NCBI GenBank assembly: GCA_022842285.1
Contig: JALHPV010000041.1
Span: forward strand, 1-35,077
Length of the DNA stretch: 35,077 bases
Source of the DNA: Kofleriaceae bacterium
Lineage (GTDB): Bacteria; Myxococcota_A; Polyangia; Haliangiales; Haliangiaceae
Direction: 5' to 3'
Under the pieces are notes generated by a model that had not been told where the DNA came from, ran no database searches, and saw only the letters and a program-made list of their open reading frames with translations. Within the stretch, counting starts at the first letter, position 1. Each line of letters begins with the position of its first letter. Below, in pieces: positions 11,249-28,924 of the stretch. The position numbers were made by a program, and so were the translations under genes.

Positions 11249-11601
11249 GGGCAGCCCGCGTCAGTCAGCTTGTTCGACTGCTCGATGCACTGCGCGACCG
11301 TCTTGCGCATCATGTCGCGCGCGTGCGCGATGTCGAGGCGCGTGGAGTCGGGGCTCATGCCGACTTCGCCGGCGACGCGGAGCGCCTCCGGGAGGGAGCG
11401 GGCGAGCTTGCACTGCTCCTGGACGGCCGGGACGGTCTTGGCGCAGTCACAGACCGCGGTGACGTAGGCCTTGCAAGCGTCCTCGTTACGCTTGATCTCG
11501 GCCTCGGGGATCGGAGGCCCGCGGTTCTCCTCGGGAGGAGGCCCGGCTTCCTTCTTCTTGCACGCGGTGACAACCGCGAGGCAGACGAGCAGGTACCTCA
11601 C
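11245..11601 (-). CDS. Cys-rich lipoprotein of unknown function
   Basis: A 118-aa protein. The N-terminus VRYLLVCLAVVTAC is a lipoprotein signal peptide whose lipobox VTAC makes Cys14 the lipid-anchored residue; KKKEAGPPPEE follows as a flexible linker. The remaining ~75 residues contain six Cys (DACKAY, VCDCAK, EQCKLA, AQCIE, AGC), suggesting three disulfides in a small helical periplasmic domain. The GTG start forms a GTGA overlap with the PP2C gene stop, which decides between this and a longer in-frame reading. Function unknown. Confidence 0.75.
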   Translation of the reverse strand: MRYLLVCLAVVTACKKKEAGPPPEENRGPPIPEAEIKRNEDACKAYVTAVCDCAKTVPAVQEQCKLARSLPEALRVAGEVGMSPDSTRLDIAHARDMMRKTVAQCIEQSNKLTDAGCP

Positions 11602-12404
11602 GACGGCGCGCGGGCCTCGGGCTCGACGCGCGCGAGGACGACGGAGATGTTGTCGACGCCGCCCTCTTCGTTGGCCGCATCGATGAGCTTCTCGACGGCG
11701 CGGTCGAGGTCCCGCTCGGCCATCAGGATGTGCTGCATCTGGTCGTCCTTCAGCATGCCGGTCAACCCGTCGCTGCACATGAGGATGGTGTCCCCGATGT
11801 GCGGCTTCTCCGTGATGATGTCGACCTGCACCGACTCCTTCATGCCAAGAGCGCGGACGATGACGTTCTTGTGGGGCCAGTTCTCGGCCTCCTCCGGCGT
11901 CACGCGCTTCATGCGGATGTAGTCGTTGATGAGGGAGTGATCCTCGGTGAGCTGGGTGATCTTGTTGTCCCGCGAGCGGTACACGCGCGAGTCACCGACG
12001 TGGCCGATGATGATCGCGTCGTCGAGGAAGTAGAGCGCGACGCAGGTCGTGCCCATGCCCTTGAAGCGCTGCTCGCGCTGCGAGCGCTCCCAGATCTCGA
12101 GGTTGGCGAGCATGATGCCGGTGGTCATCCGGTTCACGTGGGTCCGCAGGTCGCGGTCGACCTTGTAGGGCCACGTGAGGGTCTGCTGCTTGCCGGTCTC
12201 GGCGAAGTGGTCACTGATGAGCTCCACGGCGAGGCGGCTGGCGACCTCCCCGGACGCGTGACCACCCATCCCATCCGCCACGATGGCGAGGCGCTCGTTC
12301 TCGGGCAGGGAGAACGAATCCTCGTTGTGGTCGCGCTTGCGGCCGATATGCGTCGCCCCCGCGAAGCGGACCCGCATCCCGTCGAGCGGGAATGACGTGC
12401 TCAT
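11598..12404 (-). CDS. PP2C-family Ser/Thr protein phosphatase
   Basis: A 268-aa protein with all metal-binding motifs of bacterial PP2C (PppA/PstP type): RDHNEDSF near the N-terminus, VADGMGGHASGEVAS, MGTTCVAL, GHVGDSRVYR, LTEDHSL, LMCSDGLTGML and the C-terminal GGVDNISVVLA. It is a Mn/Mg-dependent phosphatase predicted to reverse Ser/Thr kinase action. No membrane segment is seen, so it is cytosolic. It is the first gene of a minus-strand run (phosphatase, lipoprotein, nucleotidyltransferase, GNAT), each overlapping the next by four bases. The only Ser/Thr kinase in the window is 7.5 kb away in another operon, so a partnership is only possible. Confidence 0.95.
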   Translation of the reverse strand: MSTSFPLDGMRVRFAGATHIGRKRDHNEDSFSLPENERLAIVADGMGGHASGEVASRLAVELISDHFAETGKQQTLTWPYKVDRDLRTHVNRMTTGIMLANLEIWERSQREQRFKGMGTTCVALYFLDDAIIIGHVGDSRVYRSRDNKITQLTEDHSLINDYIRMKRVTPEEAENWPHKNVIVRALGMKESVQVDIITEKPHIGDTILMCSDGLTGMLKDDQMQHILMAERDLDRAVEKLIDAANEEGGVDNISVVLARVEPEARAPS

Positions 12405-12575: not shown

Positions 12576-12578
12576 CTC

Positions 12579-14273
12579 GTGGAGCTGGCGCGCGGGTCCG
12601 TGACCGATCGGCCGTGGGGACGTACCCTCGCGGCCCTCGCGCAGCGCGCGCTGACGGGGGAGCTCACCGTGATCACCGACGGGAAGCGCTACCAGATCGC
12701 GTTCTCCGAGGGGACCATCGTGGCCGCTGCCTCGCCGCTCGCCGGGGATGCCGCCGTGCGCATCGCCCTGACGGCGGGCCTCATCTCCTCGACGCAGGTC
12801 TCGGACATCGCACGCCGTCAGGCCGCGAACCCCGGGCGGGACGAGATCGACCTGCTCGCCGAGGCCGCCCGCCTCGGCCCCGACCACACCTACCGCCTGC
12901 GCCGGCGGACCATCGCCCAGCGTGCCGCACGGACGTTCTCGCTCGATCGCGGGGAGTTCGTCGTCGACGACGAGATCACGCTGCCCGTCGTCGACGGCAC
13001 GGCGCTCGACATCCGCACCGTCGTGTACCTGGGGGCGAAGGGCAACCTGTCGGAGGCCCGGCTCGGCCACGACCTCCCGAGGCTCGGCGCCTGGTTCCGG
13101 CTCCGCCCCGAGGCCGCCGACGATCTCCCGTTCTTCGGCTTTGGCGCCGACGATCAACCGGCGCTCCAGCTCCTCGAGCGCGGCGCAGGCCTCGCCGAGC
13201 TCGAGACCACCGTCATCGATCCGCGCTCGGTCCACGCCGTCCTCTACGCCCTCGTGTCATGCGGCGCCGTCGAGGCCGCGGCCGCGCCACCCTCGCCCTC
13301 GGGTCTCGACGCGCCGACGGCCCGCAAGCCGCACGAGCCCGACACGCTGCGGCACCAGCAGACGCAGCGCTTCCCGCGCGCGGAATCCGAAGCCACCACC
13401 CACCGCGGCGCCGTCGATGTCGGGCGACTGCGCGGCAGCGGCGGCGCCGACGGGCGACGTGGGGAGATCGACTCGCCGACGATCCAGCGCCCCCGCTCCG
13501 CGGCGCGGCCGCCGCCCCCGCTGAAGAATCGCGCGAACGATGCCCAGGCCAGCGACATCCTCGCGCTCATCGGCGAGCGGTTGAAGCTCCTCGAAGAGCG
13601 CGCCGATCACTTCCAGCTGCTCGGCGTCACGCCCGAGGTCGATGCCAATGGCTTGCGCAAGGCCTACTTCTCACTCGCCAAGCAGCTGCACCCGGATCGC
13701 CTCGCGTCTCTCGGCATCGTCGACGAGAACCGCAACGCGCAGCGCCTCTTTGCCGAGGTGAACGCCGCGTTCGCGGTCCTGAACGATCCCACGCGCCGCG
13801 CCGAGTACACGGCGATCCTGCGCCGGGGCGGAGCCGACGCGGTGCGGGCCGAGGATGCGCGCGCCGAGGCCCTCGCCCAGCGCGTGATCGACTCCGAGGA
13901 GGCCTTCCGGCGCGGCGAGCTCGCCCTGAAGCGCGACCAGCTAGGCACCGCCATCGCCGAGCTCACCCGCGCGATCGAGCTCAACCCCGACGAGGCGGAC
14001 TACCACTCCGCCCTCGCCTGGGCTCACTTCTGCGCCGCCCCCGACAAGATGGCCCTCGCCGCGAAGACCCGCACCGATCTGAACCGCGCCATCATGCGCT
14101 CGCCCCGCGCCGTCATGGGTCGCTTCTACCTCGGCCGCGTCGAACGCATGCTCGGCAAGGACACCGAGGCGCTCGCCCTCTTCCAGGAGGTCGTGCGGGC
14201 CGCACCGAACCACGCCGAGGCGAAAGCGGAGATCCGCGTCCTCGAGCAGCGCCTCGCGAAAAAACGCTCTTAG
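12579..14273 (+). CDS. DUF4388 (PATAN) - DnaJ - TPR multidomain protein
   Basis: A 564-aa protein of a type frequent in Myxococcota. Residues ~18-130 match a DUF4388/PATAN-like N-domain (LTGELTVITDGKRYQIAFSEGTIVAAAS). Residues ~240-320 are a Pro/Arg/Ala-rich, low-order linker. Residues ~344-414 are a J domain with the HPD triad at 371-373 (LAKQLHPDRLASLG), so it can in principle stimulate a DnaK ATPase. Residues ~440-560 are TPR-like helices (GTAIAELTRAIELNPDEADYHSALAWAHF). No signal peptide is seen. The GTG start is three bases after the small membrane peptide. Proteins of this kind are thought to couple signalling to chaperone or motility complexes; the exact role is unknown. Confidence 0.88.
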   Translation: MELARGSVTDRPWGRTLAALAQRALTGELTVITDGKRYQIAFSEGTIVAAASPLAGDAAVRIALTAGLISSTQVSDIARRQAANPGRDEIDLLAEAARLGPDHTYRLRRRTIAQRAARTFSLDRGEFVVDDEITLPVVDGTALDIRTVVYLGAKGNLSEARLGHDLPRLGAWFRLRPEAADDLPFFGFGADDQPALQLLERGAGLAELETTVIDPRSVHAVLYALVSCGAVEAAAAPPSPSGLDAPTARKPHEPDTLRHQQTQRFPRAESEATTHRGAVDVGRLRGSGGADGRRGEIDSPTIQRPRSAARPPPPLKNRANDAQASDILALIGERLKLLEERADHFQLLGVTPEVDANGLRKAYFSLAKQLHPDRLASLGIVDENRNAQRLFAEVNAAFAVLNDPTRRAEYTAILRRGGADAVRAEDARAEALAQRVIDSEEAFRRGELALKRDQLGTAIAELTRAIELNPDEADYHSALAWAHFCAAPDKMALAAKTRTDLNRAIMRSPRAVMGRFYLGRVERMLGKDTEALALFQEVVRAAPNHAEAKAEIRVLEQRLAKKRS

Positions 14274-15623: not shown

Positions 15624-15696
15624 GGGGTGTTAGCTCAGCTGGGAGAGCGCTAGAATCGCACTCTAGAGGTCAGGGGTTCGATCCCCCTACACTCCA
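15624..15696 (+). tRNA. tRNA-Ala (anticodon CGC)
   Basis: The 73 bases fold into a full cloverleaf. The acceptor is GGGGTGT/ACACTCC with the G3:U70 pair that identifies tRNA-Ala, discriminator A73, D-stem GCTC/GAGC, anticodon stem CTAGA/TCTAG with loop ATCGCAC (anticodon CGC at 15657-15659, reading GCG), and T-arm AGGGG-TTCGATC-CCCCT. CCA is not encoded. Position 32 is A and faces C38, a non-standard pair at the loop top. Confidence 0.95.
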
Positions 15697-15707
15697 CAAG
15701 AAGAACT

Positions 15708-17097: not shown

Positions 17098-18672
17098 GTG
17101 CCCGCCGCGCGCACGTCGGCGACGCCGCTCGGCGTGGTGTACACGCCGCGTGCAGTCACGGAGCCGATGGTGCGCCTGACGCTCGAGCCGTTGGTGCGTG
17201 GGAAGTCGGCGGACGCGATCCTCGCGCTGCGAGTGTGCGATCCGGCCGTGGGCGAAGGCGCCTTCGTCATCGAGGTCATCGACTACCTCGCGCGCGCGAT
17301 CGTCGCGAACCGCGGCGGCGAGCTCGCCGACGCCCGGCGGGAGGTCGCGCAGCGCTGCATCGTCGGCATCGATATCGATGCCCGAGCGATCGCGACGACC
17401 CGCCGCGCGACGGGGATCGCGACGTTGCTGGTCGGGGATGCCCTGGCGTTCGACTGGGCAGCGGTGGCGCCGGGCGGGTTCGACGCGATCATCGGCAACC
17501 CGCCCTACATCCGGCAGGAGCACCTGGCGGCGAAGGAGCACCTGCGTGGGTTCGCGAGCTACAGCGGTGGGGCGGACCTCTACGTGTATTTCCTCGAGCT
17601 CGCGCACCGGCTCGTACGGCCGGGCGGACGGTGGTGCTTCGTGGTGCCCAGCAAGTGGCTGACGGTGGCGTACGGGCGCGGGCTCCGCGCGTTTCTGTCC
17701 GAGCGGCGGACAGTTCAGGGCGTGGTGGACTTCGCCCGCTCGCGGCTGTTCGCGGCGGATGCCTACCCTTGCATCGTGTGGGGCGGCGCGGCCGCGGCCG
17801 CCGGACCGGTCGCCACGACGCGGGCGGCCCCCGATGAGGATGTCGGAGTCGCGCTCGCGCGGGCCGCGCCCGCCCGGACTCCGGCGGCGTGGACCGCCGA
17901 GCCGTGGCACATCGATACGCCGGCCGAGCGGGCGCTGCTGGAGCGGCTGGAGCACGAGTTTCCACCGCTGTCGGCGTACGTGACCGGGCGGCCGTCGCGG
18001 GGCGTCGTGACGGGATGCAATCGCGCGTTCGTGCTCGACCGGGCGCAGCGCGATGCCCTGATCGCGGCAGAGCCGGCGGCAGCGGCGATCGTGCGGCCGT
18101 TCGTGAAGGGGCGCGACCTGGCGGGGCTCGTCGGCGAGGCACGCCCTCCTGGCGGGGATCAGCGGTACATCCTGCTCGTCGATCGCGGCACCAAGCTCGA
18201 GCATCTGCCGCGGGTGCGGGCGCATCTCGAGCAGTTTCGCGAGGCGCTGGAGCCGCGACCGGCCGGGGCGACGGGGCCGTGGGCCGGTCGCAAGCCGGGC
18301 GCATACCGGTGGTACGAGCTCCAGGATCCGGTGGGACCGCTCGTGCATGCGAGGCGGGCACGAATCCTCTATCAGGACATCCAGACCGCGCCGCTCGCGG
18401 TGCTCGATCGCACGGGCGAGCTGGTGCCCGACACGACGGTATGGATGTTACCCACCGATGATGCCTTCGTACTCGCGGTGCTGAGCTCGCCGCTGTACGG
18501 CTGGTACGCGAAGCGCCGCTTTCCGCCCGCGCTCAACGGGGCGGTGCGGCCGAAGGCGGCGTATCTGCGGCGGTTGCCGTTGCCCACGCCGACGGAGGCG
18601 ATGCGGCGCGCCCCGGATGTCGCCGCGGCTTACCGGCTGACGGCAGCCGAAGTGAAGCTGATCGCGACCTGA
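17098..18672 (+). CDS. Orphan N6-adenine DNA methyltransferase (Eco57I/TaqI type)
   Basis: A 524-aa gamma-class enzyme. An N-terminal YTPRAVTEPMVRL segment precedes SAM motif I (CDPAVGEGAF, residues 48-56), motif II (VGIDIDARAI) and the catalytic motif IV NPPY at 134-137 followed by IRQEHL. The C-terminal half is a TaqI-like recognition part (RGVVTGCNRAFVLD...FVKGRDL...ILYQDIQ...VWMLPTDDAFVLAVLSSPLYGWY). No nuclease domain is fused and no endonuclease gene is adjacent, so it may be a solitary regulator-type methylase or half of a broken restriction system. The GTG start is three bases after the lipoprotein gene. Its last 43 bases overlap the convergent gene ending at 18630. Confidence 0.9.
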   Translation: MPAARTSATPLGVVYTPRAVTEPMVRLTLEPLVRGKSADAILALRVCDPAVGEGAFVIEVIDYLARAIVANRGGELADARREVAQRCIVGIDIDARAIATTRRATGIATLLVGDALAFDWAAVAPGGFDAIIGNPPYIRQEHLAAKEHLRGFASYSGGADLYVYFLELAHRLVRPGGRWCFVVPSKWLTVAYGRGLRAFLSERRTVQGVVDFARSRLFAADAYPCIVWGGAAAAAGPVATTRAAPDEDVGVALARAAPARTPAAWTAEPWHIDTPAERALLERLEHEFPPLSAYVTGRPSRGVVTGCNRAFVLDRAQRDALIAAEPAAAAIVRPFVKGRDLAGLVGEARPPGGDQRYILLVDRGTKLEHLPRVRAHLEQFREALEPRPAGATGPWAGRKPGAYRWYELQDPVGPLVHARRARILYQDIQTAPLAVLDRTGELVPDTTVWMLPTDDAFVLAVLSSPLYGWYAKRRFPPALNGAVRPKAAYLRRLPLPTPTEAMRRAPDVAAAYRLTAAEVKLIAT

Positions 18673-19190
18673 TCGCCTGTTCGCTCGAGACGGCCACCCG
18701 CGGCTTCGATCGCGGCCGTGGCGATGACGAGCTTGGTGCCGTCGGCGCTCACGCAGGGGATCATCACGCTGCTCGCGGCGAGCGTCACGGGCACGCTGCG
18801 CAGAGGATCGCCGGCGCTGGCGAGCTCGATCACCAGGGCGATCGCCTGGACCAGGATCTCCACCGGACCGTCGATCGCGTCCGCGGCGCCGTCGAGCGCG
18901 ATGCGCACGCCGGCCCGACGCGCCGCGCGGGTGACGAGGTCCGTCAGGGTGATGCGCTCGCGCTTCCCGCGAACCAGCGCCCGGTTCGCGGCAAGGAGCT
19001 CGACGGCGGATTCGGTGGATTCGCGAAGGGCGACGAGGATGGGGGTGAGATCGGGGTACGTCTCGGCCAGGAGCTCGAGCTCGTCGAGCGCCATGAGGAG
19101 AGACTGCAGCCGCGACCCCAGATCGTGGTTGGCAGCGCCGGCTGCAGACCCGATCAGCGCGAGGGCAAGGACATTGCGGTCATGGCTCAA
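18630..19190 (-). CDS. ChpT-like histidine phosphotransferase or degenerate histidine kinase
   Basis: A 186-aa protein. Residues ~10-75 look like a kinase dimerisation helix pair with a candidate phospho-His at His22 (ANHDLGSRLQSLLMALDELELLAE). Residues ~85-186 follow the order of a kinase ATP domain but lack the N, G1 and G2 boxes, ending in a GGRLERTGDQVAISF strand pair. This combination (DHp plus ATP-less CA fold) is what ChpT histidine phosphotransferases have. I place the start at TTG 19190 because it gives a TTGA overlap with the upstream response regulator, matching the rest of the operon; no ATG or GTG in frame is better placed. It is the last gene of the signalling operon. The ChpT reading is an inference. 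Confidence 0.6.
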   Translation of the reverse strand: MSHDRNVLALALIGSAAGAANHDLGSRLQSLLMALDELELLAETYPDLTPILVALRESTESAVELLAANRALVRGKRERITLTDLVTRAARRAGVRIALDGAADAIDGPVEILVQAIALVIELASAGDPLRSVPVTLAASSVMIPCVSADGTKLVIATAAIEAAGGRLERTGDQVAISFTSAAVSR

Positions 19191-19759
19191 GAGCCGCTCT
19201 CGAGATGCGGGCCGAGGCCCGAGAGACCGAGGGCGGCCGCTTCGGCCCATGGATCGTCGGTGACGACGTGGGGACCGTCGCCGCGGAGCTCGATCTTCGA
19301 GATGCCCGGGTACTCCTGCTCGAGCGCCCTCCGGAGCGCTTCGCGACGCTCGCGCTTCTGCCGATCGCCGCTGAGGGCGACAAGCTCGGCGTTCCGCGTG
19401 ACCGCCGCGGCGACCGTCTGTTTGAGGACATCGTTGTTGAAGGGCTTGTTGAGGAAGCGAAAGATCTCGCCCTGGTTGATGCCGTCGACCACCGTCTCGA
19501 AGGTGCGCTGCCCCGTGAGCAAGATGCGGACGGTCTCCGGACGCACCCGGCGCGCATGCCCCGCGAGCTGGGCGCCCGTCATCTCGGGCATGTCGTAGTC
19601 CGACACGAGCACGGCCACCTCGTCGGCCGCGATCCAGCCCAGCGCTTCGCTCGCCGAGAGCGTGGCCCGGACATCGTAGGGCTCGCGTTTGAGGCAGCGA
19701 TGGACGGTGGCGAGCATCTGCTCGTCATCATCGACACACACGACAAGAGGTCTGGTCAT
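19187..19759 (-). CDS. Response regulator with C-terminal tail
   Basis: A 190-aa protein. Residues 1-~125 form a receiver domain: VDDDEQML acidic pocket, phospho-Asp54 in SDYDMPEMTG, Thr82 (LLTGQ) and Lys105 (LNKPF), all present. The ~65-residue tail (RQKRERREALRRALEQEYPGISKIELRGDGPHVV...) has a basic helix but no DNA-binding, HD-GYP or GGDEF domain. It overlaps its neighbours by 4 nt at both ends, next to the putative phosphotransferase and the Ser/Thr kinase. It may be a target of the Ser/Thr kinase or of the phosphotransferase. Confidence 0.9.
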   Translation of the reverse strand: MTRPLVVCVDDDEQMLATVHRCLKREPYDVRATLSASEALGWIAADEVAVLVSDYDMPEMTGAQLAGHARRVRPETVRILLTGQRTFETVVDGINQGEIFRFLNKPFNNDVLKQTVAAAVTRNAELVALSGDRQKRERREALRRALEQEYPGISKIELRGDGPHVVTDDPWAEAAALGLSGLGPHLESGS

Positions 19760-21045
19760 GACGGCAACCACCGGCGCCAGCCGCGCCGCTCGGTGACCCG
19801 CTCGATCTCGTCCAGCGCGGCGATGAGCGCACGCATGCCGGGAAACCGTGCCTGCGGGATCTTTTGCAGGCACGTGGTCACGACATCGGCGAGCTTACCA
19901 GGCAGAGGGCCGTGGGGACTCTCCACCGGAGGCACGGGGGCCTGGATATGCATCATGCACAGCTTCCGGATATCGTCGTCCATGAAGGGGGGCTTGCCCG
20001 TGATGAGCTCGAATAGCACCGCGCCCAGGCCGTACTGATCGGAGCGATCGGTCGGCGCCAGACCGCGCAACTGCTCCGGTGAAATGTAGGCCGGCGTGCC
20101 GAGGACAAACTCGGGATTCTCGTCCCGCATGCCTTCGCCGGCGAGCGTGGCCAGCCCGAAGTCGACGAGCTTGCAGTGAAGCTCGGGGCCGTCGAGCACG
20201 AGGGCGTTCGACGGCGTCACGTCGGCGTGCACGACGCCGCGATCGTGGGCGGCCGCCAGCGCCTCGGCGAGCTGCCGCGCGATCACCACGACATCGCCCG
20301 GCGGGAGAGCCCCCGCGCGTTCGACACGAGCGGTGAGAGACTCACCCGCGAGTAGCTCCATCACGATGTACGGCCGCCCGTCGGGGAGGTGCCCGAAGTC
20401 GACGGTGTCCACGATGTTCGGATGGCGCACGCGGGCCGCGGTGCGCGCCTCCCGGAGGAACTGCTGCGCCGCGCCGGCCTCGCGCTCGATGACGCGGGAC
20501 AGCAATACTTTGAGCGCATAGCGTCGGCCGAGGGTGACGTGCTCGGCGCAGTACACCGTCCCCATGCCGCCTTCGCCGAGGAACTCCACGATCTTGTACT
20601 GCCCGACCGTGTCGCCCGGCTCGAGGTCGGTCGTCACCATCGCGCCGGCGCGGAGCGGCTTGCGCTTCTGCAGCACGAGCTCGGCCCGGAGCGAGCTGCC
20701 CGGGCGCACGGTGATTACCACCTCGGTCTCGCGCGAGCCCGACTTCACGGGCAGGACGGCGCTGCTGAGGTGCGCCGCGGCGAGGTCCAGATTCGCGAGA
20801 AAGGCCAGGCGCGCGATGACAGCGCAGGCCAGTCCCGACTCCATCAGCACCGACGCCAGCACGGCCGGGCCGCGCTCGACGGTGATGAGGTACTGGTCGG
20901 CGTCGGGCCCATGGGCTTGGGGCTTCGGCTCCAGGTAGACGGTGTCCGCGTGCGCGCGTACCGCGCTGGCGAGGACCAGATCTGCGAGTCGGGTCGGGTC
21001 GCCCTTCCCGGGATCGACGTTAGGCCGTGAAATGTTTGGAGCCAT
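19756..21045 (-). CDS. Ser/Thr protein kinase with GspE/PilT-like N-terminal domain
   Basis: A 429-aa protein. Residues ~150-425 are a Hanks-type kinase: glycine loop GEGGMGTVYCAEH, Lys179 (YALKVLL), Glu199 (FLREARTAAR), catalytic loop HADVTPSN (Asp275, Asn280), DFG at 295-297, and GTPAYISPEQ. The loop lacks the usual Arg and has Thr where most kinases have Lys, a common myxobacterial variant. Residues ~20-130 (ADLVLASAVRAHADTVYLEP...AVIARLAFLANLDLAAAHLSSAVLPV) follow the sequence pattern of the N-domain of secretion ATPases GspE/PilT, without Walker motifs. No membrane helix is seen. ATG 21045 is used; TTG 21051 has a better-spaced GAGG and is possible. It sits 12 bases after the EAL protein gene. 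Confidence 0.9.
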   Translation of the reverse strand: MAPNISRPNVDPGKGDPTRLADLVLASAVRAHADTVYLEPKPQAHGPDADQYLITVERGPAVLASVLMESGLACAVIARLAFLANLDLAAAHLSSAVLPVKSGSRETEVVITVRPGSSLRAELVLQKRKPLRAGAMVTTDLEPGDTVGQYKIVEFLGEGGMGTVYCAEHVTLGRRYALKVLLSRVIEREAGAAQQFLREARTAARVRHPNIVDTVDFGHLPDGRPYIVMELLAGESLTARVERAGALPPGDVVVIARQLAEALAAAHDRGVVHADVTPSNALVLDGPELHCKLVDFGLATLAGEGMRDENPEFVLGTPAYISPEQLRGLAPTDRSDQYGLGAVLFELITGKPPFMDDDIRKLCMMHIQAPVPPVESPHGPLPGKLADVVTTCLQKIPQARFPGMRALIAALDEIERVTERRGWRRWLPS

Positions 21046-21057
21046 CGACAAGGGGCA

Positions 21058-23718
21058 CTACCTCGTGGCGATTGAATCGACCACTTTGGCTCCGCGTGCA
21101 GCGGGGGTGGGGAGGTTCGGAGAGGGACGGCCGACCAAAAACCCTTGGAGAAGGTCACAGCCGAGCTCCACGAGGAGCTCCCGCTCGGCCGGGGTCTCGA
21201 CGCCCTCGCCGACGACCTTCGCGCCGACCTCGTGGCAGAGGTTGCAGAGGGCCGCGATCGTGCGCTGCTTCAGCGTCGACAGGTTCACGTCGCGGACGAG
21301 CGACATATCGATCTTGACGATCTCCGGCGTGAGGTCCGCGAAGCTCGTGAGGCCGGAGTACCCGGCTCCGATATCGTCGATCGCGATCCGGAATCCGAGG
21401 CCGCGCAAGCGCTCGATGCGCCCCGCCAGGTCCGACGATGGAGCCAGGGAGGCACGTTCCGTCACCTCGAGCACGACCCGCTTGGCGATGGTGGTGAGGG
21501 GGCTCCCCTCGGCGACGAGGTCGACGTCGAGCAGGTCGTCAGGGTGGAGATTCACGAACACGTTGCCGATGTACGGATGGCAGGCGAGCGCATCACCGAC
21601 CAGCGCGCGCACCCGACGGCCGAGGGTGGGCATGCGGCCGAGCTGGGTGGCGGCATCGAGAAGCGAGGGGGGCGTCGGGAACGTCGGCTCGCGCGTGCGC
21701 ACCAGCGCCTCGACGCCGAAGAGCTCGCCGGTGGCCGCACTCACGATCGGCTGGAACACCATGTACAGCTGGTCGAGGGCCTGCTCGAAGCGAACCTCGA
21801 GCCCCGCCCGATCGACCGCCCCCGACGCACTCCCCGCGACCGTGACCGCCTCGCGACGCAGCCTCGCCAGGGCGTGGGCGCGCACCGCGTGCCGCACGAG
21901 CTTGCCGACGGTCTCGAGCTCGAGGGGCTTCGTCAGGTAGCGGAAAGCGCCGTACTCGATCGCCTTGGAGGCGGTATCGACGTCGGGCATGCCCGAGATC
22001 AGGATCACCGGGACGTCGAGGTCGACGCGGCGCACGGCGCGCAGGAGATCGAGTCCGGATCCGTCGGGCATGTGCACGTCGGAGAGCACGACGTCGATCT
22101 TGCGGTGCTCGAGCGCGGCGATCGCCTTCGCCCCGGTGTCGACCTCGATCACGTCGTAGCTCTGCTTCGTCAGGTAGCGCACGAGTGTGCGCCGCAGCGA
22201 TGGATCGTCGTCCGCCACCAGCACCCGAGGCTGGAGCGCGGGATCGGACAGCCGCCGGGGAGCCGCCGTCACCGCCACCGCCGCGACCGCGGTGCGAAGC
22301 TGCTCCGGCGTGAACGGCTTCGCCAGCAGACCTGCCGGCACCGTGCCCGCCGGCCCGAGCGCGCCCGCCGGGTAGCCCGACATCAGCACCACCTCGAGGT
22401 CCGAGCGGAGCTCCCTGAGCTCCAGCGCGAGGAGATCGCCACGCGTGTCACCGAGCACCACGTCGACCACCGCCACGTGGATCGTCCCGTCGTAGCTGAC
22501 GCATAGCTTGCGCGCATCGCCGGCATTCGCGGCGAGGAGGACCGTACAGCCCGCCTGCTGGAGGATCTTCGATGCGACCCGACGGATGTCATCCTGGTCG
22601 TCGACAACGAGCACCGTCACCGCGGGCAGCTTCGCCGGAACGCGGGCCGGCGCGGGCACCGTTGCGACCTCCCCGCCGGTCACGGGCAGCAGCACGCGGA
22701 AGGTCGTCCCGCGGCCGACTTCGCTGTAGACGCTGATCGTCCCCCCCGCTTGCGCGAGGATGCCGTGCACGATCGCGAGACCGAGCCCCGTCCCCCGGCC
22801 CTCCTCCTTCGTGGTGAAGAATGGATCGAAGATGCGCCGCTGGGTCTCCCCGTCCATGCCCGAGCCTGTATCCGTGACGGCGAGCTCGGCATAGCGGCCT
22901 CCGGAGATGCCCAGCGAGGGAGCCTCGTCGTCATCGATCTCGCGCGTGGCCGTCTCGACGGTCAGGCGCCCCTCGCTGTCCATGGCATCGCGGGCGTTGA
23001 TCGCGAGGTTCATCAGCACCTGCTCGATCTGCACCGGGTCGGCGATCACCGTCGGCACGTCGCCCTTGTGGACATCGAGCGTGATGCGATTGCCGACGAG
23101 CTTCTTCAGCATCGGCACCGCGCCCGCCACCACCGCGTCGAGCTGGATCGAACGGGGCGTCGCCATGCTGTGCCGGGAGAGTGCGAGCAGCTGTCGCGTG
23201 ATGCCGGCCGCGCGTTCCGCAGCCTTGCGGATCTCACCCGCATCTTCGCGGCGCGGATCGGCTTGCTCGAGGCTCTCCTCGAGCATCCACGCGTAGCTCT
23301 CGACCACGGTGAGGACGTTGTTGAAGTCGTGCGCGACCCCGCCCGCGAGCCGCCCGATCGCGTCGAGCTTCTGCGACTGCAGGAGCTGAGCCTCCGTCTT
23401 GCGCAGACGTTCGCGGACACGCTCGCGCTCGGTGACCTCCATCGCCACGACGATCCGCGCCGACCGCCCCTCGATGGTGGCGTCGCGGCTCTGACACTCC
23501 ACGAGGATCGGAGTCCCGTCCTTGCACCGGTGATGCAGGATGGTCTCGTCGTCGTCGCGCGCGCGCAGATCCGCCGTCGTCATCGCGAGAAACTCGGCGA
23601 CGGAGTAGCCGTAGGCGCGCACGGCCGCGGCGTTCACGGCAAGGAAGCGGCCCGATTCGCGGTCGTGCGCCCACATCGGGAGGGGGCACAGCTCGAACAG
23701 CTCGCTGCTGCTGATCAT
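21058..23718 (-). CDS. PAS-histidine kinase-REC-REC-EAL protein
   Basis: An 886-aa soluble protein. Domains: PAS (1-~100, FAVNAAAVRAYGYS type); kinase with His130 (AGGVAHDFNN), N box NLAINARDAM, G1 DTGSGM, FFTTK and G2 GTGLGLAIV (~120-346); receiver 1 (~367-482, Asp419, Lys467); receiver 2 (~498-612, Asp547, Lys597); EAL (~655-870). The EAL domain retains Glu670 (EAL), Asn723 (FVNLHP), Glu751 (EVTER), Asp781-Asp782 (DDIGAG, Phe to Ile), Lys802, Glu838 and Gln858, so c-di-GMP hydrolysis looks intact. Phosphorylation by its own or a partner kinase would tune the phosphodiesterase. Its start overlaps the upstream hybrid kinase by 4 nt. Confidence 0.95.
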   Translation of the reverse strand: MISSSELFELCPLPMWAHDRESGRFLAVNAAAVRAYGYSVAEFLAMTTADLRARDDDETILHHRCKDGTPILVECQSRDATIEGRSARIVVAMEVTERERVRERLRKTEAQLLQSQKLDAIGRLAGGVAHDFNNVLTVVESYAWMLEESLEQADPRREDAGEIRKAAERAAGITRQLLALSRHSMATPRSIQLDAVVAGAVPMLKKLVGNRITLDVHKGDVPTVIADPVQIEQVLMNLAINARDAMDSEGRLTVETATREIDDDEAPSLGISGGRYAELAVTDTGSGMDGETQRRIFDPFFTTKEEGRGTGLGLAIVHGILAQAGGTISVYSEVGRGTTFRVLLPVTGGEVATVPAPARVPAKLPAVTVLVVDDQDDIRRVASKILQQAGCTVLLAANAGDARKLCVSYDGTIHVAVVDVVLGDTRGDLLALELRELRSDLEVVLMSGYPAGALGPAGTVPAGLLAKPFTPEQLRTAVAAVAVTAAPRRLSDPALQPRVLVADDDPSLRRTLVRYLTKQSYDVIEVDTGAKAIAALEHRKIDVVLSDVHMPDGSGLDLLRAVRRVDLDVPVILISGMPDVDTASKAIEYGAFRYLTKPLELETVGKLVRHAVRAHALARLRREAVTVAGSASGAVDRAGLEVRFEQALDQLYMVFQPIVSAATGELFGVEALVRTREPTFPTPPSLLDAATQLGRMPTLGRRVRALVGDALACHPYIGNVFVNLHPDDLLDVDLVAEGSPLTTIAKRVVLEVTERASLAPSSDLAGRIERLRGLGFRIAIDDIGAGYSGLTSFADLTPEIVKIDMSLVRDVNLSTLKQRTIAALCNLCHEVGAKVVGEGVETPAERELLVELGCDLLQGFLVGRPSPNLPTPAARGAKVVDSIATR

Positions 23719-26627
23719 CGAGAACGGAGGCGTTCGTTGATGAGGTCGCGGAGCTGCTGGATCTCGAACGGTTTATCCAGTCTCGCATTGGGGATCTTGT
23801 CGAGGAACGACCGGGCTTGCGACGTGAAGGCGCCGCCGGTGATGAAGATGATCCGCTGGGCCAGCGCGGGCGCGACCTTCGTGATGGCTTCGTAGAAGTC
23901 CATGCCGGTCACCGTCGGCATCATCAGGTCGCAGAGGATCACGTCGAACTGCTCGCCGTTCGCGATTCGCTCCGCCGCTTCGTGAGCATCGGAGAGTCCC
24001 ACCACCTCGTGCTCGGGGCCGAGGGCTCGCCGGATCGTCGAGGCGACGATGGTCTCGTCATCGATCACGAGGATGCGTCCGCGGTGCTTCGCGACCGGCG
24101 CGCCGCTCTCCGGACTGGGGAGGGACACGAGCCCCCCTCCGCTCGGGGGCAGGAGGAGCTGGAACTGGGTTCCCTTGCCGAGCTCCGACGTCACGAGGAT
24201 CTCGCCGCCGATCGCCGTCACGAGCTGGTGGCAGATCGCGAGTCCGAGGCCAGTGCCGACGCCGATGGGTTTGGTCGTGAAGAACGGCGTGAAGATGCGC
24301 TTCAGCGTCTCCGGCGACATGCCGTGGCCCGTATCCGAGATCTCGATCTTCACGCGGCCGTCGGGAGCCAGCAGTGTCGTGACCCGGATCTCGTTCTGGT
24401 TCGCGCGGCCCTCGGGGATCGCCTGCGCCGCATTGACGATCAGGTTCAGGAACACCTGCCCGAGCCGCGAATCATTCGCGTAGACGGCCGGGATCGGCTG
24501 GTAGTTGCGCACGAGCTGCGCGCGATGACGGATCTCGTTCCACACCATCCGGATCGACGACTCGAGCACGCGCTCCACGTCGACCTCGCCGCGAGCCTCG
24601 TCATCGCTGCGCGAGAACAGCTTCAGGTCGCGAACGATGTTGCGCACACGCTGGGCGGCCTCGTGGGCATCGCGCAGCTCGTCGGGGAGCTCGCCGAAAT
24701 CGATGCTGCCCTTGTGCTGGTCGACGAGCGCCTGGAGGTCTGCGCTCGCCATCTCGAGATTGCCGAGCACCGCCATGAGCGGGTTGTTGATCTCGTGGCC
24801 GACGCCCGCGGCGAGGGTGCCGAGCGAGGCCATGCGGTCGCTCACCAGTAGCTGCGCGCGGGCGTTCTTCTCCGCGGTGACGTCGCGGAACACGGCCACG
24901 CCGCCGCCGCCGCCGTCGAGCGGGCGCGCATTGACGGCGAGCCAGAGGCCGTCGCTCGCACCGGTGCGGCGCACGAAGATCTCGACGCCGTCGACGGACT
25001 CGCCGCGGATCGCGCGCGACAGCGGGAAGTCGCCCGGAACCAGCAGCGTGGTCTGGTCGGTCCGGTACGTGCCGATATCGAGCGACGGTTCGGTCTTGCC
25101 GGGCGCGTTGCCGAGGGCGTTCAGGGCCGCACGGTTGAAGTGCGTGATCTTGCCGTCCTTGTTACTGACGAGCACGCCCTCGCCCATGCTCTCGAGGATC
25201 GACCGCAGCACGGCGGCGTTCGAGCTCGCGGCGTGCTCGGACGCATCCTTCTCGGCGAACGCGCGCGCGAGCGCCAGCGCGAGGCTGATCTGGCCGGCGA
25301 CGGCCTGCGCGAAGCTCACGCGATCCGCGTTCTCGAGATCATTCGACCGCGACGCCACCACGAGCGCGCCGAGCGCCTGGCTCATGTGGCCCAGCGGCGC
25401 GATCACCATCGACTTCACCTTCGCGGCGGTCAACACGTGGTTGCTCGTGCCGCCGGTGTCGTCGGTAGGAGCCAGCGTCATCAGGAGTTGATTGGAGATC
25501 GCGGAGCGGAGGAGCTCGGGCCTCCCGAAGAACGACTCCACTTCGTGCTGCCCCCAGGCCTCCGCCGCGCCGTACCGGAACACCCGCAGGCGGTCCTTGT
25601 CACTGATGTACAGGATGCCGAGCGAGATGCCGCCGGCGTCGAAGCAGGTGGCGAGCACCTGATGCAAGGCGCTCTCGAGATCGCGATGCGTCGCCACGGC
25701 CGACGAGATGCCAGAGAGCACCGACAGCTCGGCCGAGAGCAAGGCACAGCGCTGGTTCACGCCCGCATTGATCGCGACCTGCCGCTCGAGCTGGGCCATC
25801 ACGCGCCGCACGCGCTCGCGCTCGACCTCGGGATCGACGGCCACGGCCACGGAGCGCGCCTGGACATGGGCGATCGTGTCGTCGAGGGCGACGAGGACTT
25901 CCTTCAGCTCGGGCGTCCGGAAGATGAGATCGGTGGCGCCGGCGCGCTTGGCGAGGGCGCGGTCCTCGGCATCGAGGTAGCTGTTCGTGACGAGCAGGAC
26001 CGGCGTCGCCGCGAGCTCCGGATCGTTACGCACTGCCATGCACAGGCCGAACCCGTCGAGGCGCGGCATGAGGACATCGGAGACGATCGCGTCGGGCTTG
26101 AGCAGCCGCGCTCGCTCGAGCGCCTCCTGACCGTCGGCGGCCATCGCCACCTTGAACCCGGCGCGCTGGAGTCGCAGAGCCACGAGCTTGCGCTGCACCG
26201 CATCGTCGTCGGCGATGAGGAGCTGCTTCGCCGGACGCTGCGCGACCGCGTCGCCGGGCTGCGGCGGCAGATGCGCGCGGATCACGTGGATCAGACGCGA
26301 TGGTTCGACGGGCTTCGTGACGACATCGTCGAAGCCGACCTGCGAGACGCGAGCCTCGTCGAGGGTCGTGAGCATGCCGGAGAACGCGAGGATCGGAACG
26401 TCACTGCCGTTGGGGAGCGCGCGGATCGTGGTCAGCAGCTCGAACCCATCCCCGTCGGGGAGGATCAGATCCATGAGCACGAGCGAGATCGGGTTGGCGC
26501 GGAACAGCGCTGTGGCCGACCCCGCATCGGGCGCGTCGATGACGACGAACTTCTGCGCCTCGAGCGCGACTCGTACGAGCTTGCGCGTGATGGGGTTGTC
26601 TTCGATGACCAGGATCGTCGTCGTCAT
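23715..26627 (-). CDS. Hybrid histidine kinase REC-REC-GAF-PAS-kinase-REC
   Basis: A 970-aa soluble sensor. Receiver 1 at 1-~120 (Asp53, Lys105); receiver 2 at ~134-250 (Asp184, but the conserved Lys is replaced in IFRTPE at ~237); a connecting coil; GAF at ~300-455; PAS at ~470-590; kinase with His611 (GVGHEINNPLMAV), N box NLIVNAAQAI, G1 DTGHGM, FFTTK, G2 GTGLGLAIC (~595-826); C-terminal receiver 3 at ~850-970 (Asp900, Lys952). The layout fits a phosphorelay hub receiving input at the N-terminus and passing phosphate via receiver 3 to a separate phosphotransferase. No membrane helices, so it senses a cytosolic signal. Both ends overlap neighbours by 4 nt. Confidence 0.95.
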   Translation of the reverse strand: MTTTILVIEDNPITRKLVRVALEAQKFVVIDAPDAGSATALFRANPISLVLMDLILPDGDGFELLTTIRALPNGSDVPILAFSGMLTTLDEARVSQVGFDDVVTKPVEPSRLIHVIRAHLPPQPGDAVAQRPAKQLLIADDDAVQRKLVALRLQRAGFKVAMAADGQEALERARLLKPDAIVSDVLMPRLDGFGLCMAVRNDPELAATPVLLVTNSYLDAEDRALAKRAGATDLIFRTPELKEVLVALDDTIAHVQARSVAVAVDPEVERERVRRVMAQLERQVAINAGVNQRCALLSAELSVLSGISSAVATHRDLESALHQVLATCFDAGGISLGILYISDKDRLRVFRYGAAEAWGQHEVESFFGRPELLRSAISNQLLMTLAPTDDTGGTSNHVLTAAKVKSMVIAPLGHMSQALGALVVASRSNDLENADRVSFAQAVAGQISLALALARAFAEKDASEHAASSNAAVLRSILESMGEGVLVSNKDGKITHFNRAALNALGNAPGKTEPSLDIGTYRTDQTTLLVPGDFPLSRAIRGESVDGVEIFVRRTGASDGLWLAVNARPLDGGGGGVAVFRDVTAEKNARAQLLVSDRMASLGTLAAGVGHEINNPLMAVLGNLEMASADLQALVDQHKGSIDFGELPDELRDAHEAAQRVRNIVRDLKLFSRSDDEARGEVDVERVLESSIRMVWNEIRHRAQLVRNYQPIPAVYANDSRLGQVFLNLIVNAAQAIPEGRANQNEIRVTTLLAPDGRVKIEISDTGHGMSPETLKRIFTPFFTTKPIGVGTGLGLAICHQLVTAIGGEILVTSELGKGTQFQLLLPPSGGGLVSLPSPESGAPVAKHRGRILVIDDETIVASTIRRALGPEHEVVGLSDAHEAAERIANGEQFDVILCDLMMPTVTGMDFYEAITKVAPALAQRIIFITGGAFTSQARSFLDKIPNARLDKPFEIQQLRDLINERLRSR

Positions 26628-27013
26628 GAAGTTGCTGCTCGCTTCCGCGCCATGAGACCGGCGATCACCCCAGGGAAGGCCCGCGTATCGACGGGCTTGG
26701 TCACGTACCCGTCGAAGCCGGCCGAGAGGGCTTTCTCGTCGTCTCCCTTCATCGCACTCGCGGTCACCGCGACGATGACGGTTCCGTCGTACTTGGGATT
26801 GGCGCGGAGCACCTTGCAGAGCTCGATCCCGCTCATGCCGGGCAGCCGCAGATCGAGAAGCATGAGCGCCGGGTCGTAGGTTTCGAGGATCCCGAGCGCG
26901 GACTCGGCGGTGATCGCCGACCTCACCGCGAAGCCCCGGGTCGTGAGCAGCAGCTCGAGCAGCTTCAAGTTGAGCGGCGTGTCGTCGACGATGAGGACTG
27001 ATTCGCCTGCCAT
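26624..27013 (-). CDS. Single-domain response regulator (DivK/CheY type)
   Basis: A 129-aa receiver domain alone: acidic pocket IVDDTPLNLKLLELLL, phospho-Asp54 (LLDLRLPGMSG), Thr84 (VAVTASAM) and Lys106 (YVTKPVD) are all present. The VDDTPLN..LLE start and TASAM.GD motif are typical of DivK-like regulators rather than CheY chemotaxis proteins. It is the first gene of the signalling operon; the 110 bp to the Nudix stop upstream hold the likely promoter, which I could not place. No output domain, so it works by protein contact or as a phosphate sink. Confidence 0.95.
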   Translation of the reverse strand: MAGESVLIVDDTPLNLKLLELLLTTRGFAVRSAITAESALGILETYDPALMLLDLRLPGMSGIELCKVLRANPKYDGTVIVAVTASAMKGDDEKALSAGFDGYVTKPVDTRAFPGVIAGLMARKRAATS

Positions 27014-27123
27014 TGAGCTACCAAGCCCATTGTTTCCGATGCCGCTCCGAGATCCAACTGCTCACCTGATGCGGATTGCATCGCTCCACCCCCTTGCCGA
27101 GCGGATCGGGGCTCCTCCTCACG

Positions 27124-27684
27124 CTAGGCGGAGGGTGCCAGGACGTCGCCGAGGATCCGCATGGTGAGTCCCCAGATGACATGTCCTTCGTAGTTCCAGC
27201 TCGGAAACTTCAGCTCCGAGGCCGGGTACGTGTACGTGCTATCGAAGGCTCCGGAGGCGGCCCGGCCGAGCGGGAACCAGAACGCGGCGAGGGCCTCGGG
27301 TCCACACACCGGAACGAGGGATTCCTCGACGAGAAACACGAAGGGCGTGACCTCGATGCCGCGGGGGCCCGACGTGTGGGGGTGCAGCGGGTCCAGGTTG
27401 CCGAGGACCCGCGCCCCGGCGAGGTCGATACCGAGCTCTTCGTGGGTCTCGCGGATGGCCGTGGCGAGGAGGTCGAGGTCCTCCGGGTGGTACCCCCCTC
27501 CCGGGAGTGAGATGTGGCCGGACCACGGGTCGCCCTCACGCTCGGCCCGCTTCATGAGCAATACGTGAGGCTCTGCTGCATTATGCAGCACTACCGCGAC
27601 CGCGGCCCGTCGCACCCCATCGGCAGGCGGCGCGACGGCGGTCAGCGACAGCCGCGTCACGAGCCGCTCCACGAGGCCAGGCAC
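27124..27684 (-). CDS. Nudix hydrolase, CoA-pyrophosphatase-like
   Basis: A 186-aa Nudix protein. LLMKRAEREGDPWSGHISLPGGGYHPEDLDLLATAIRETHEELGI contains the LPGG and RETHEELG parts of the Nudix box, and the PED..L..TA.RE spacing matches the CoA/acyl-CoA diphosphatase subfamily (NudL/NUDT7), which cleaves CoA to phosphopantetheine and ADP. The C-terminal LDPLHP..S, VTPFVF and Y..EGH.IWGLT segments also fit. GTG 27684 is used as start; a TATAAG box 7 bases upstream suggests a leaderless message. It is divergent from the reductase gene at 27725, 40 bp away. Confidence 0.85.
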   Translation of the reverse strand: MPGLVERLVTRLSLTAVAPPADGVRRAAVAVVLHNAAEPHVLLMKRAEREGDPWSGHISLPGGGYHPEDLDLLATAIRETHEELGIDLAGARVLGNLDPLHPHTSGPRGIEVTPFVFLVEESLVPVCGPEALAAFWFPLGRAASGAFDSTYTYPASELKFPSWNYEGHVIWGLTMRILGDVLAPSA

Positions 27685-27690
27685 GGGACC

Positions 27691-27696
27691 CTTATA
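27691..27696 (-). promoter_or_regulatory. Candidate -10 box of a leaderless Nudix transcript
   Basis: The minus strand reads TATAAG six bases before the GTG start codon of the Nudix gene, which would put transcription start at or next to the start codon. No good -35 is visible. Only the -10 supports this. Confidence 0.35.
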
Positions 27697-27724
27697 GCGG
27701 GTTTCTCGGCGTAGGCTGGCGGCC

Positions 27725-28924
27725 ATGGCGCGGCGCGACTTTGATCTCGTGGTGTTCGGGGCCACCGGATACACCGGCTCCCTCGTGGCGAAGTACCTCG
27801 CGAGCCACACCGACCGGCCGCGGTGGGCGATCGCGGGCCGCAATGCGGGCAAGCTCGAAACCCTCGGCCTCGGGGTACCGGTCCTGATCGCCGATGCCAC
27901 GGATCGCGCCTCACTCGACGCGGTCGCGGCGCGGACCCGCGTCGTGTGCACGACGGTGGGGCCATATGCGAAGCATGGTGATGCACTGGTCGCGGCCTGT
28001 GCCGAGGCCGGCACTCACTACTGCGATCTCACCGGTGAGCTGCAGTGGCACTACCGCATGATCCAGGCGAATCACGAGCGCGCGCAGGCGACGGGCGCGA
28101 AGCTCGTGCACTCGTGCGGCTACGATTCGATCCCGAGCGACCTCGGGACGTGGGCCGCCCAGCAGGCGTTCATCGCGAAGTACGGCCATCCCGCCGAGCG
28201 CGTGACGGCCTACTACGGGGAGGCGAGCGGCGGCCTTTCGGGCGGGACGGTGGCGAGTGGCATCGGCACGGCGCGCGAGGCGAGCGAGAGCAAGGAGGTC
28301 CGGCGCGTGCTCGGGAACCCGTACGCCCTCGATCCGGATCCGGAGGCCGTGCGACCCGCCGCGCCCGACGAGAGCTCGATCCGCTGGGACAAGGCGATGG
28401 GCATGTACACCGCGCCGTTCGTGATGGCGCAATACAACACCCGTATCGTGCGGCGCGGCCATGCGCTCGCCGGCTTCCCGTGGGGACCGGACTTCCGGTA
28501 CCGCGAGGTGATGTCGGCGCCGAAGGGTCCCGCCGGGCTCGTGCGGGCCGTCGCGTTCACCGCCGGGCTCGGCGCGATCGCCTTCGCCCTGAAGCGCCCG
28601 GCGCTGCGCGAGATGCTGGCCAAGCGCGTGCCCCAGCCGGGCTCCGGACCGTCGGAGCAGCAGCGCGAACGTGGACACTGGAAGGCCCGCTTCCTCGCCG
28701 AGCGCGGCGACGACAAGCTCCTGTTTGTCGTCGGTGATAAGGACGGAGACCCGGGCTACAAGTCGACCTCCAAGATGCTCGGCGAGTCAGCCTTGTGCCT
28801 CGCTCTCGACGAGTTGCCCGGGGGCGGGGGCTGTTTGACCCCTGCGACCGCCATGGATGGCAAGCTCCTCGACCGGCTGCGTCGGGCCGGTTTGACCTTC
28901 GAGGAAGGCACGCTGACGGCATAG
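27725..28924 (+). CDS. Saccharopine dehydrogenase-like NAD(P)-binding oxidoreductase (trans-acting enoyl reductase family)
   Basis: A 399-aa protein with an N-terminal Rossmann fold (VVFGATGYTGSLVAKYLASH), followed by WAIAGRNAGKLETLG, VCTTVGPYAKHGDALVAACAEAGTHYCDLTGE and HSCGYDSIPSDLG. These are the signature of the saccharopine-dehydrogenase-like family that includes the mycobacterial trans-acting enoyl reductase Rv2953. A hydrophobic segment near residue ~280 (VRAVAFTAGLGAIAFAL) may bind membranes. True saccharopine dehydrogenase is unlikely. It is followed after 9 bp by the PlsC acyltransferase gene, so a lipid role is favoured. Confidence 0.9.
   Translation: MARRDFDLVVFGATGYTGSLVAKYLASHTDRPRWAIAGRNAGKLETLGLGVPVLIADATDRASLDAVAARTRVVCTTVGPYAKHGDALVAACAEAGTHYCDLTGELQWHYRMIQANHERAQATGAKLVHSCGYDSIPSDLGTWAAQQAFIAKYGHPAERVTAYYGEASGGLSGGTVASGIGTAREASESKEVRRVLGNPYALDPDPEAVRPAAPDESSIRWDKAMGMYTAPFVMAQYNTRIVRRGHALAGFPWGPDFRYREVMSAPKGPAGLVRAVAFTAGLGAIAFALKRPALREMLAKRVPQPGSGPSEQQRERGHWKARFLAERGDDKLLFVVGDKDGDPGYKSTSKMLGESALCLALDELPGGGGCLTPATAMDGKLLDRLRRAGLTFEEGTLTA

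Follow-up and report, generated by a model that had tools for sequence, protein, structure and literature searches.

The stretch analysed here (the window) comprises the complete contig JALHPV010000041.1 (C41; 35,077 nt) of a Kofleriaceae bacterium, whose metagenome-assembled genome (MAG) has a size of 7.9 Mb in 550 contigs, with 96.65% completeness and 4% contamination. The minus strand of the window carries six consecutive signalling genes, named g1 to g6, for a single receiver (REC) protein, a hybrid histidine kinase (HK), a kinase that ends in two REC domains and an EAL domain for cyclic di-GMP (c-di-GMP) hydrolysis, a Hanks-type Ser/Thr kinase, a second receiver protein and a phosphotransferase candidate. 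The coordinates of the open reading frames and Pfam searches bore out a preliminary description, made from the letters of the window, in the six genes, their domains and their junctions. Four of the five junctions (g1/g2, g2/g3, g4/g5 and g5/g6) are overlaps of 4 nt, and 12 nt separate g3 from g4, so that in this genome the six genes are packed tightly into a single unit (Table 1). The overlap of g6 with g5 requires a TTG start, and the alternative in-frame ATG at 19250 falls inside g5. At the other end, g6 and the convergent gene for an Eco57I-type methyltransferase share 43 nt of their 3' ends (18630-18672). The GC content is uniform along the window (65-73%).

The surroundings of these genes were compared in 30 genomes of the family including this one, and 20 loci were retrieved and annotated by means of domain profiles derived from the proteins of the window; 11 congeners were compared at the site. 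The genus layout was found to be the methyltransferase gene (usually on the plus strand), then g6, g5 and g4 on the minus strand, a divergent cassette on the plus strand, and the NUDIX (minus) and saccharopine-dehydrogenase-like (SDH; plus) genes. The NUDIX/SDH and methyltransferase genes also flank the locus in the window, where g1-g2-g3 lie between them and run in the same direction as g4-g5-g6. The six-gene order, whose absence from relatives the preliminary description had named as evidence against its reading, was seen in this genome alone and g3 lies beside this kinase in none of the 29 other family genomes, which by gene order marks the single six-gene operon as a derived, genome-specific assembly. 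Orthologs of g4 are present in most congeners with 63-70% identity. The pairing of g4 with g5, which comes directly behind it on the same strand, recurs in nearly all kinase-bearing genomes across families and orders, and no other association of the locus is as well conserved; g6 is present in 9 of the 11 congeners. The g4/g5 junctions in relatives are often ATGA or GTGA overlaps, and g6 likewise abuts g5. In named records, relatives found through the g5 family were MAGs of Kofleriaceae, Myxococcales and Deltaproteobacteria, in agreement with the Myxococcota of the preliminary description. A frame break was noticed in the kinase gene of one congener (L044, G015).

The transcription of the unit was approached through promoter-like sequences. 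A crude consensus scan of 18400-27800 returned no sigma-70-like promoter, which is weak evidence in a genome of 69% GC. An extended -10-like motif, TGnTAnTAT, precedes the conserved start region of the kinase by no more than about 50 nt in 8 of 10 congeners, against 0.015 expected from base-composition shuffles, and the two congeners without it (G003 and G005) also have no REC-HK gene. The motif occurs nowhere in the window, the 12-nt g3-g4 junction included, and its absence suggests that the kinase here has probably lost its own promoter and relies on transcription from g1-g3. The earlier idea of one operon with no separate promoters does not extend to the relatives, where the kinase operon bears a conserved promoter-like motif of its own.

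Table 1. Features of the locus and its surroundings in the window
Feature	Position	Strand	Description and basis
Gene for DUF4388-DnaJ-TPR protein	12576-14270		
tRNA-Ala (CGC) gene	15624-15697		
Eco57I-type methyltransferase gene	17098-18672	+	Conserved flank, convergent with g6; Pfam and synteny
g6	18630-19190	-	186 aa from TTG; DHp and degenerate CA-like; no Pfam match
g5	19187-19759	-	190 aa; REC (Pfam) and conserved tail of about 70 aa (LE.E.PGI..V)
g4	19756-21045	-	429 aa from ATG; Hanks-type Ser/Thr kinase; Pfam Pkinase 2.1e-42
N2-like domain region of g4	20620-21045	-	PDB profile search and hhalign
g3-g4 junction	21046-21057	-	12 nt
g3	21058-23718	-	886 aa; PAS-HisKA-HATPase-REC-REC-EAL; Pfam
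g2	23715-26627	-	970 aa; hybrid kinase REC-REC-GAF-PAS-HisKA-HATPase-REC; Pfam
g1	26624-27013	-	129 aa; single REC protein; Pfam Response_reg 1.9e-25
Gap upstream of g1, after NUDIX gene	27014-27126	-	Presumed operon promoter region
NUDIX gene	27127-27660	-	Conserved flank; Pfam and synteny
SDH gene	27725-28924	+	Conserved flank; Pfam and synteny

Exchange of the cassette beside the kinase core

A divergent REC-EAL gene that is not orthologous to g3 stands beside the core in 10 of the 11 congeners, with matching flanks where the contig reaches. The cassette comprises REC-HK, REC and REC-EAL genes in five genomes (G010, G004, G012, G007 and G001), REC-HK and REC-EAL in two (G014 and G015), REC and REC-EAL in one (G003) and REC-EAL alone in two (G005 and G002); the REC-HK was verified by Pfam in three genomes. 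It is absent from G008, where the kinase lies directly behind the NUDIX gene and the receiver reading frame appears broken (L039).

The genes that occupy this place in the window have relatives at other loci. The g1-g2 pair, a REC protein and a hybrid kinase, recurs elsewhere in about 10 congeners, and its neighbours there, where checked, are PAS-HK-REC-REC or SpoIIE-type genes. In a comparison that leaves out G010 and G012, the window g2 was 39-47% identical to the congener copies, which are mostly 55-71% identical among themselves, the G002 copy being also an outlier. Full-length orthologs of g3 with 59-61% identity were found in G005, G007 and G014 and a partial one in G006; these are free-standing, with neither g1-g2 nor g4 adjoining and with mostly unrelated neighbours. 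Because G005, G007 and G014 carry a g3 ortholog as well as the divergent cassette, the two EAL genes are distinct. Furthermore, a maximum-likelihood tree split the g3-type EAL proteins (window g3 and the free-standing orthologs) from the cassette-type ones with support of 100/99. A simple inversion that turned the cassette EAL gene into g3 was ruled out by their identity of 41-46%, compared with 59-78% within the cassette group, and by the separate clade. A move of the cassette EAL gene to another contig was also ruled out, as no ortholog of it occurs elsewhere in the genome at 96.65% completeness. The matching flanks, the separate EAL clades and the lack of another cassette EAL copy in the genome together indicate that g1-g2 and g3 came from elsewhere in the genome and replaced the divergent cassette in place in this lineage. 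By the same comparison, g4-g5-g6, whose genes are coupled in translation, is the old core, and three separately conserved modules (g4-g5-g6, g1-g2 and g3) have been joined here.

EAL domains are rare in this genome (6 matches), and an EAL gene would lie within 10 kb of a given locus by chance in about 1-2% of cases, as estimated from domain counts. Since an EAL gene also lies at the site of the congeners, the association goes beyond chance. The replacement by a non-orthologous REC-EAL protein, with so few EAL matches in the genome, argues for a functional linkage, and the two non-orthologous REC-EALs at one site are the best evidence for c-di-GMP in the circuit. Both g3 and the divergent cassette copies have kept the catalytic residues of the EAL domain (EAL, N, E, DD, K, E, Q). 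The preliminary description had stressed the union of three signalling currencies (His phosphorelay, Ser/Thr phosphorylation and c-di-GMP) in one unit; their co-location is conserved at the genus site, whereas the single operon is derived. Similarly, the genus preserves at this site the grouping of a Ser/Thr kinase with a response regulator, a phosphotransferase candidate and a REC-EAL protein, but the EAL cassette of the relatives is divergent and of other ancestry.

Beyond the genus, four deeper relatives (L042, L046, L152 and L153) have a REC-HK gene as the divergent neighbour, which is followed by an NtrC-type REC-sigma54 regulator in L042 and by a REC protein of similar size in the other three; in L042, moreover, a distant REC-EAL lies on the opposite side of the pair. 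These neighbours suggest repeated swapping of the output. A second pair of N2-like kinase and receiver in the genome of the window (L047, G000:C1:117422-118666) is divergent from a REC-HK gene, and this layout, which has no EAL gene, is presumed to be the ancestral arrangement.

A putative phosphorelay and competing readings

We propose, with a probability of about 50%, that the locus is modular and that its kinase-receiver-phosphotransferase core and the exchanged cassette work as a CckA/ChpT-like relay. The PAS/GAF-sensing kinases g2 and g3 would autophosphorylate on His and pass the phosphate to their own REC domains, from where His22 of g6 would relay it to the second REC of g3 and thereby gate c-di-GMP hydrolysis by the EAL domain. 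The g6 protein would also pass phosphate to g5 (and g1), and phosphorylated g5 may switch or dock the Ser/Thr kinase g4, so that a single input would alter both c-di-GMP and Ser/Thr phosphorylation.

Several observations weigh against such a circuit. The deeper relatives carry the REC-HK gene with no EAL gene and the one checked has a sigma-54-type regulator, hence c-di-GMP is not a universal output. G008 has no EAL cassette and G003 has the methyltransferase gene directly behind g5 with no g6 between them, indicating that neither the cassette nor g6 is obligatory. HK and Ser/Thr kinase neighbours are not rare in a genome with more than 150 Ser/Thr kinases. The CA-like half of g6 is 21-29% identical to its orthologs, and the predicted fold of this protein gives no function.

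It may also be that g1-g3 were rearranged beside an unrelated kinase operon and share a promoter with it but no common circuit. The abundance of kinases in the genome (at least 156 Pkinase matches and more than 200 HK-like candidates), the mostly unrelated neighbours of the g3 orthologs elsewhere and the uniqueness of the six-gene order among the 30 genomes all fit this generic clustering. Yet two non-orthologous genes for the rare EAL domain lie at the same site in different species, and the short overlaps and the 12-nt junction mean tight coupling; we therefore consider it rather doubtful.

The modular relay depends on g6 as a phosphotransferase. Its His22-Asp23 pair is invariant in 9 aligned orthologs and lies in a DHp-like helix (residues 18-41) of an AlphaFold2 (AF2) model with a pLDDT of 81. 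Foldseek matched this model to HK cores and to ChpT (4fpp, E 2e-5), with RetS and DivL also among the matches, and VIA-align superposed 159 residues on EnvZ (Z 13.3, root-mean-square deviation 4.0); ChpT was not among the VIA-align matches listed, which excludes nothing. The N, D and G boxes of ATP binding were not seen in the ortholog alignment, no g6 ortholog matched Pfam HPTransfase (PF10090) at E<=1, and the g6 profile found nothing convincing among PDB sequences. The ChpT likeness proposed earlier thus stands in the anatomy (invariant His-Asp, HK-core fold, no ATP motifs) and not in PF10090, and by its anatomy g6 is a pseudo-kinase phosphotransferase candidate of ChpT/Spo0B type, which we do not assign to the ChpT family itself. 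The window g6 is 27-33% identical to its orthologs, which have a mean of 39% among themselves, and g4 and g5 are not more divergent; this fits, weakly, a change of partner. A conserved N-terminal segment, HLDE.G.PC.RH, possibly a metal site, is present in most g6 orthologs (L044, L036, L034, L041, L035, L040, L037 and L032) and absent from the window g6.

The same protein could be a catalytically dead HK scaffold that binds g5 or modulates the dimerisation of a partner kinase in the manner of RetS and DivL. Besides the Foldseek matches to these two, the retention of a CA-like half with no ATP motifs and the fast divergence of g6 would suit a scaffold, but His22 and Asp23 have remained invariant at a low overall identity, as expected of a phospho-acceptor. 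The scaffold is thus a tentative alternative, less probable than the proposed phosphotransferase.

The direction of signalling was considered next to the role of g6. The g4 kinase might be the input and phosphorylate g5 or relay proteins on Ser/Thr, with the relay as output. It is established for other bacteria that Ser/Thr kinases can act on two-component systems by crosstalk (review PMC6213207), and the PilB N2-like domain of g4 described below could serve as a sensor or oligomerisation part. Against this reversal, g5 combines a canonical REC site with a conserved tail, and a DNA-binding domain was not found in it; its output must therefore go through another protein, and g4 is the partner closest at hand. 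We regard the reversed direction as unlikely, although by no means far-fetched, and favour phosphate flow from the relay through g5 to g4.

The proposed output also assumes that g4 is an active kinase and not a pseudokinase-like scaffold. Its catalytic loop reads HADVT in place of HRDxK, which is the non-RD form, and the HAD is shared by most of the family, the HRD being kept in the more distant kinases of G022, G016 and G026. The change of the HRD Arg to Ala and of the catalytic-loop Lys to Thr or Ser in all sampled family members bar these distant outgroups would suit a scaffold. However, Ala in place of the HRD Arg is a known non-RD state that is compatible with activity, and the glycine loop, Lys179, the catalytic Asp275, Asn280 and the DFG Asp295 are invariant in 19 orthologs, making a dead kinase quite improbable. 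A chimera of the assembly, for which the 550 contigs, the 4% contamination and the single occurrence of the arrangement could be cited, is most improbable, given that both flanks (NUDIX/SDH and Ser/Thr kinase-response regulator-g6-methyltransferase) match the congeners, the g1-g2-g3-g4 junctions are tight and the GC content is uniform.

The N2-like domain of the Ser/Thr kinase

The description of g4 as a Ser/Thr kinase was borne out by the Pkinase domain and its key residues, and it overlooked, along with the altered catalytic loop, a domain outside the kinase domain, at residues ~14-116, that matches the N2 domain of PilB/GspE. In a profile search of the PDB, the best four hits of this region were all PilB (E 0.0017-0.003), and the next, unrelated one had an E-value of 0.27. 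When the profile was aligned by hhalign with PilB/GspE N2 domains of the same genomes, the probability was 95.2% (E 2.6e-8, 96 columns), and five column-shuffled control profiles all gave 1.2% or less. Single-sequence Pfam matches to T2SSE were weak and limited to 2 of the 19 g4 orthologs. The AF2 model of g4 (pLDDT 85) has the N-terminal order helix, three strands, helix, three strands, and Foldseek with the whole model gave kinases alone among the matches listed. Near the C-terminus, G422, W423 and W426 (GW..W motif) are invariant in the 19 aligned orthologs.

The likeness to PilB/GspE traffic ATPases lies in the N2 profile and in the secondary-structure order of residues 14-116. The difference is that g4 has no ATPase domain, as Pfam found no Walker A/B core of T2SSE in it, and that a Hanks-type kinase follows the N2-like domain; in place of the DIHIEP-type core, g4 has come to read TVYLEP. 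The domain that binds c-di-GMP is MshEN/N1, which is distinct from N2. Since g4 matches N2 and not MshEN/N1, no binding of c-di-GMP is claimed for it. A gene for a PP2C-type Ser/Thr phosphatase (11601-12404, minus strand) lies some 7 kb away from the operon of the kinase and may encode an antagonist.

A wider and clearly speculative view, which we hold to be unlikely as it stands, would see in g4 a receiver-controlled kinase family of the Myxococcota whose N2-like domain docks on or mimics the ATPases of type IV pili or type II secretion, and which is consistently paired with a receiver, has a ChpT-like phosphotransferase in one genus and has its c-di-GMP or transcription output cassette swapped wholesale between species. 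If true, this would be a plug-in architecture through which surface machines are connected with His phosphorelay, Ser/Thr phosphorylation and c-di-GMP.

Comparison with known signalling systems

The locus is notable for the module replacement and the N2-kinase-receiver core rather than for the six-gene operon itself. It offers a natural experiment in signalling evolution, in which a sensor/output cassette beside a fixed core gave way to a non-orthologous cassette whose output is of the same kind, and the exchange came with the conversion of divergent units into one operon. The locus further draws attention to a family of Ser/Thr kinases that carry a secretion-ATPase-like domain and, in Myxococcota, to a candidate phosphotransferase that resembles ChpT. 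Neither a described kinase/PilB precedent nor one for a kinase/relay/EAL operon was found in the literature searched, most subscription papers being outside its reach.

The system can be set beside three others. Among NCBIfam models, CckA was nearest for the kinase half of g3 (residues 84-479), with 361 bits against a cut-off of 1000. The CckA-ChpT-CtrA/CpdR pathway of Caulobacter (PMC9981736), in which ChpT is a published phosphotransferase of DHp and degenerate-CA build, resembles the locus in the PAS-HK-REC N-terminal half of g3 with its HDFNN H-box, in the DHp and degenerate-CA build of the candidate g6 and in the stand-alone receivers g1 and g5. The locus differs from it in several respects: g3 has REC-EAL at its C-terminal end and no apparent membrane segment, and it shares its operon with a candidate phosphotransferase and a Ser/Thr kinase; there is no CtrA, and the host belongs to the Myxococcota.

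The kinase-REC core of g2 scored best with EspC and EspA (463 and 432 bits, far below the NCBIfam cut-offs of 1200 and 1400). These hybrid kinases are proposed to act with Ser/Thr kinases (PktA5) in Myxococcus xanthus (PMC4320627). Unlike them, g2 has its own N-terminal sensors, and the EAL domain, the phosphotransferase and the PilB-like domain are not part of the EspA/EspC and PktA5/EspB system as described. The C-terminal half of g3 reached 117 bits with PvrR (cut-off 580) and resembles PvrR-type REC-EAL regulators in a REC domain followed directly by an EAL domain with its catalytic residues, whereas in g3 a kinase and another REC domain precede this REC-EAL in the same protein.

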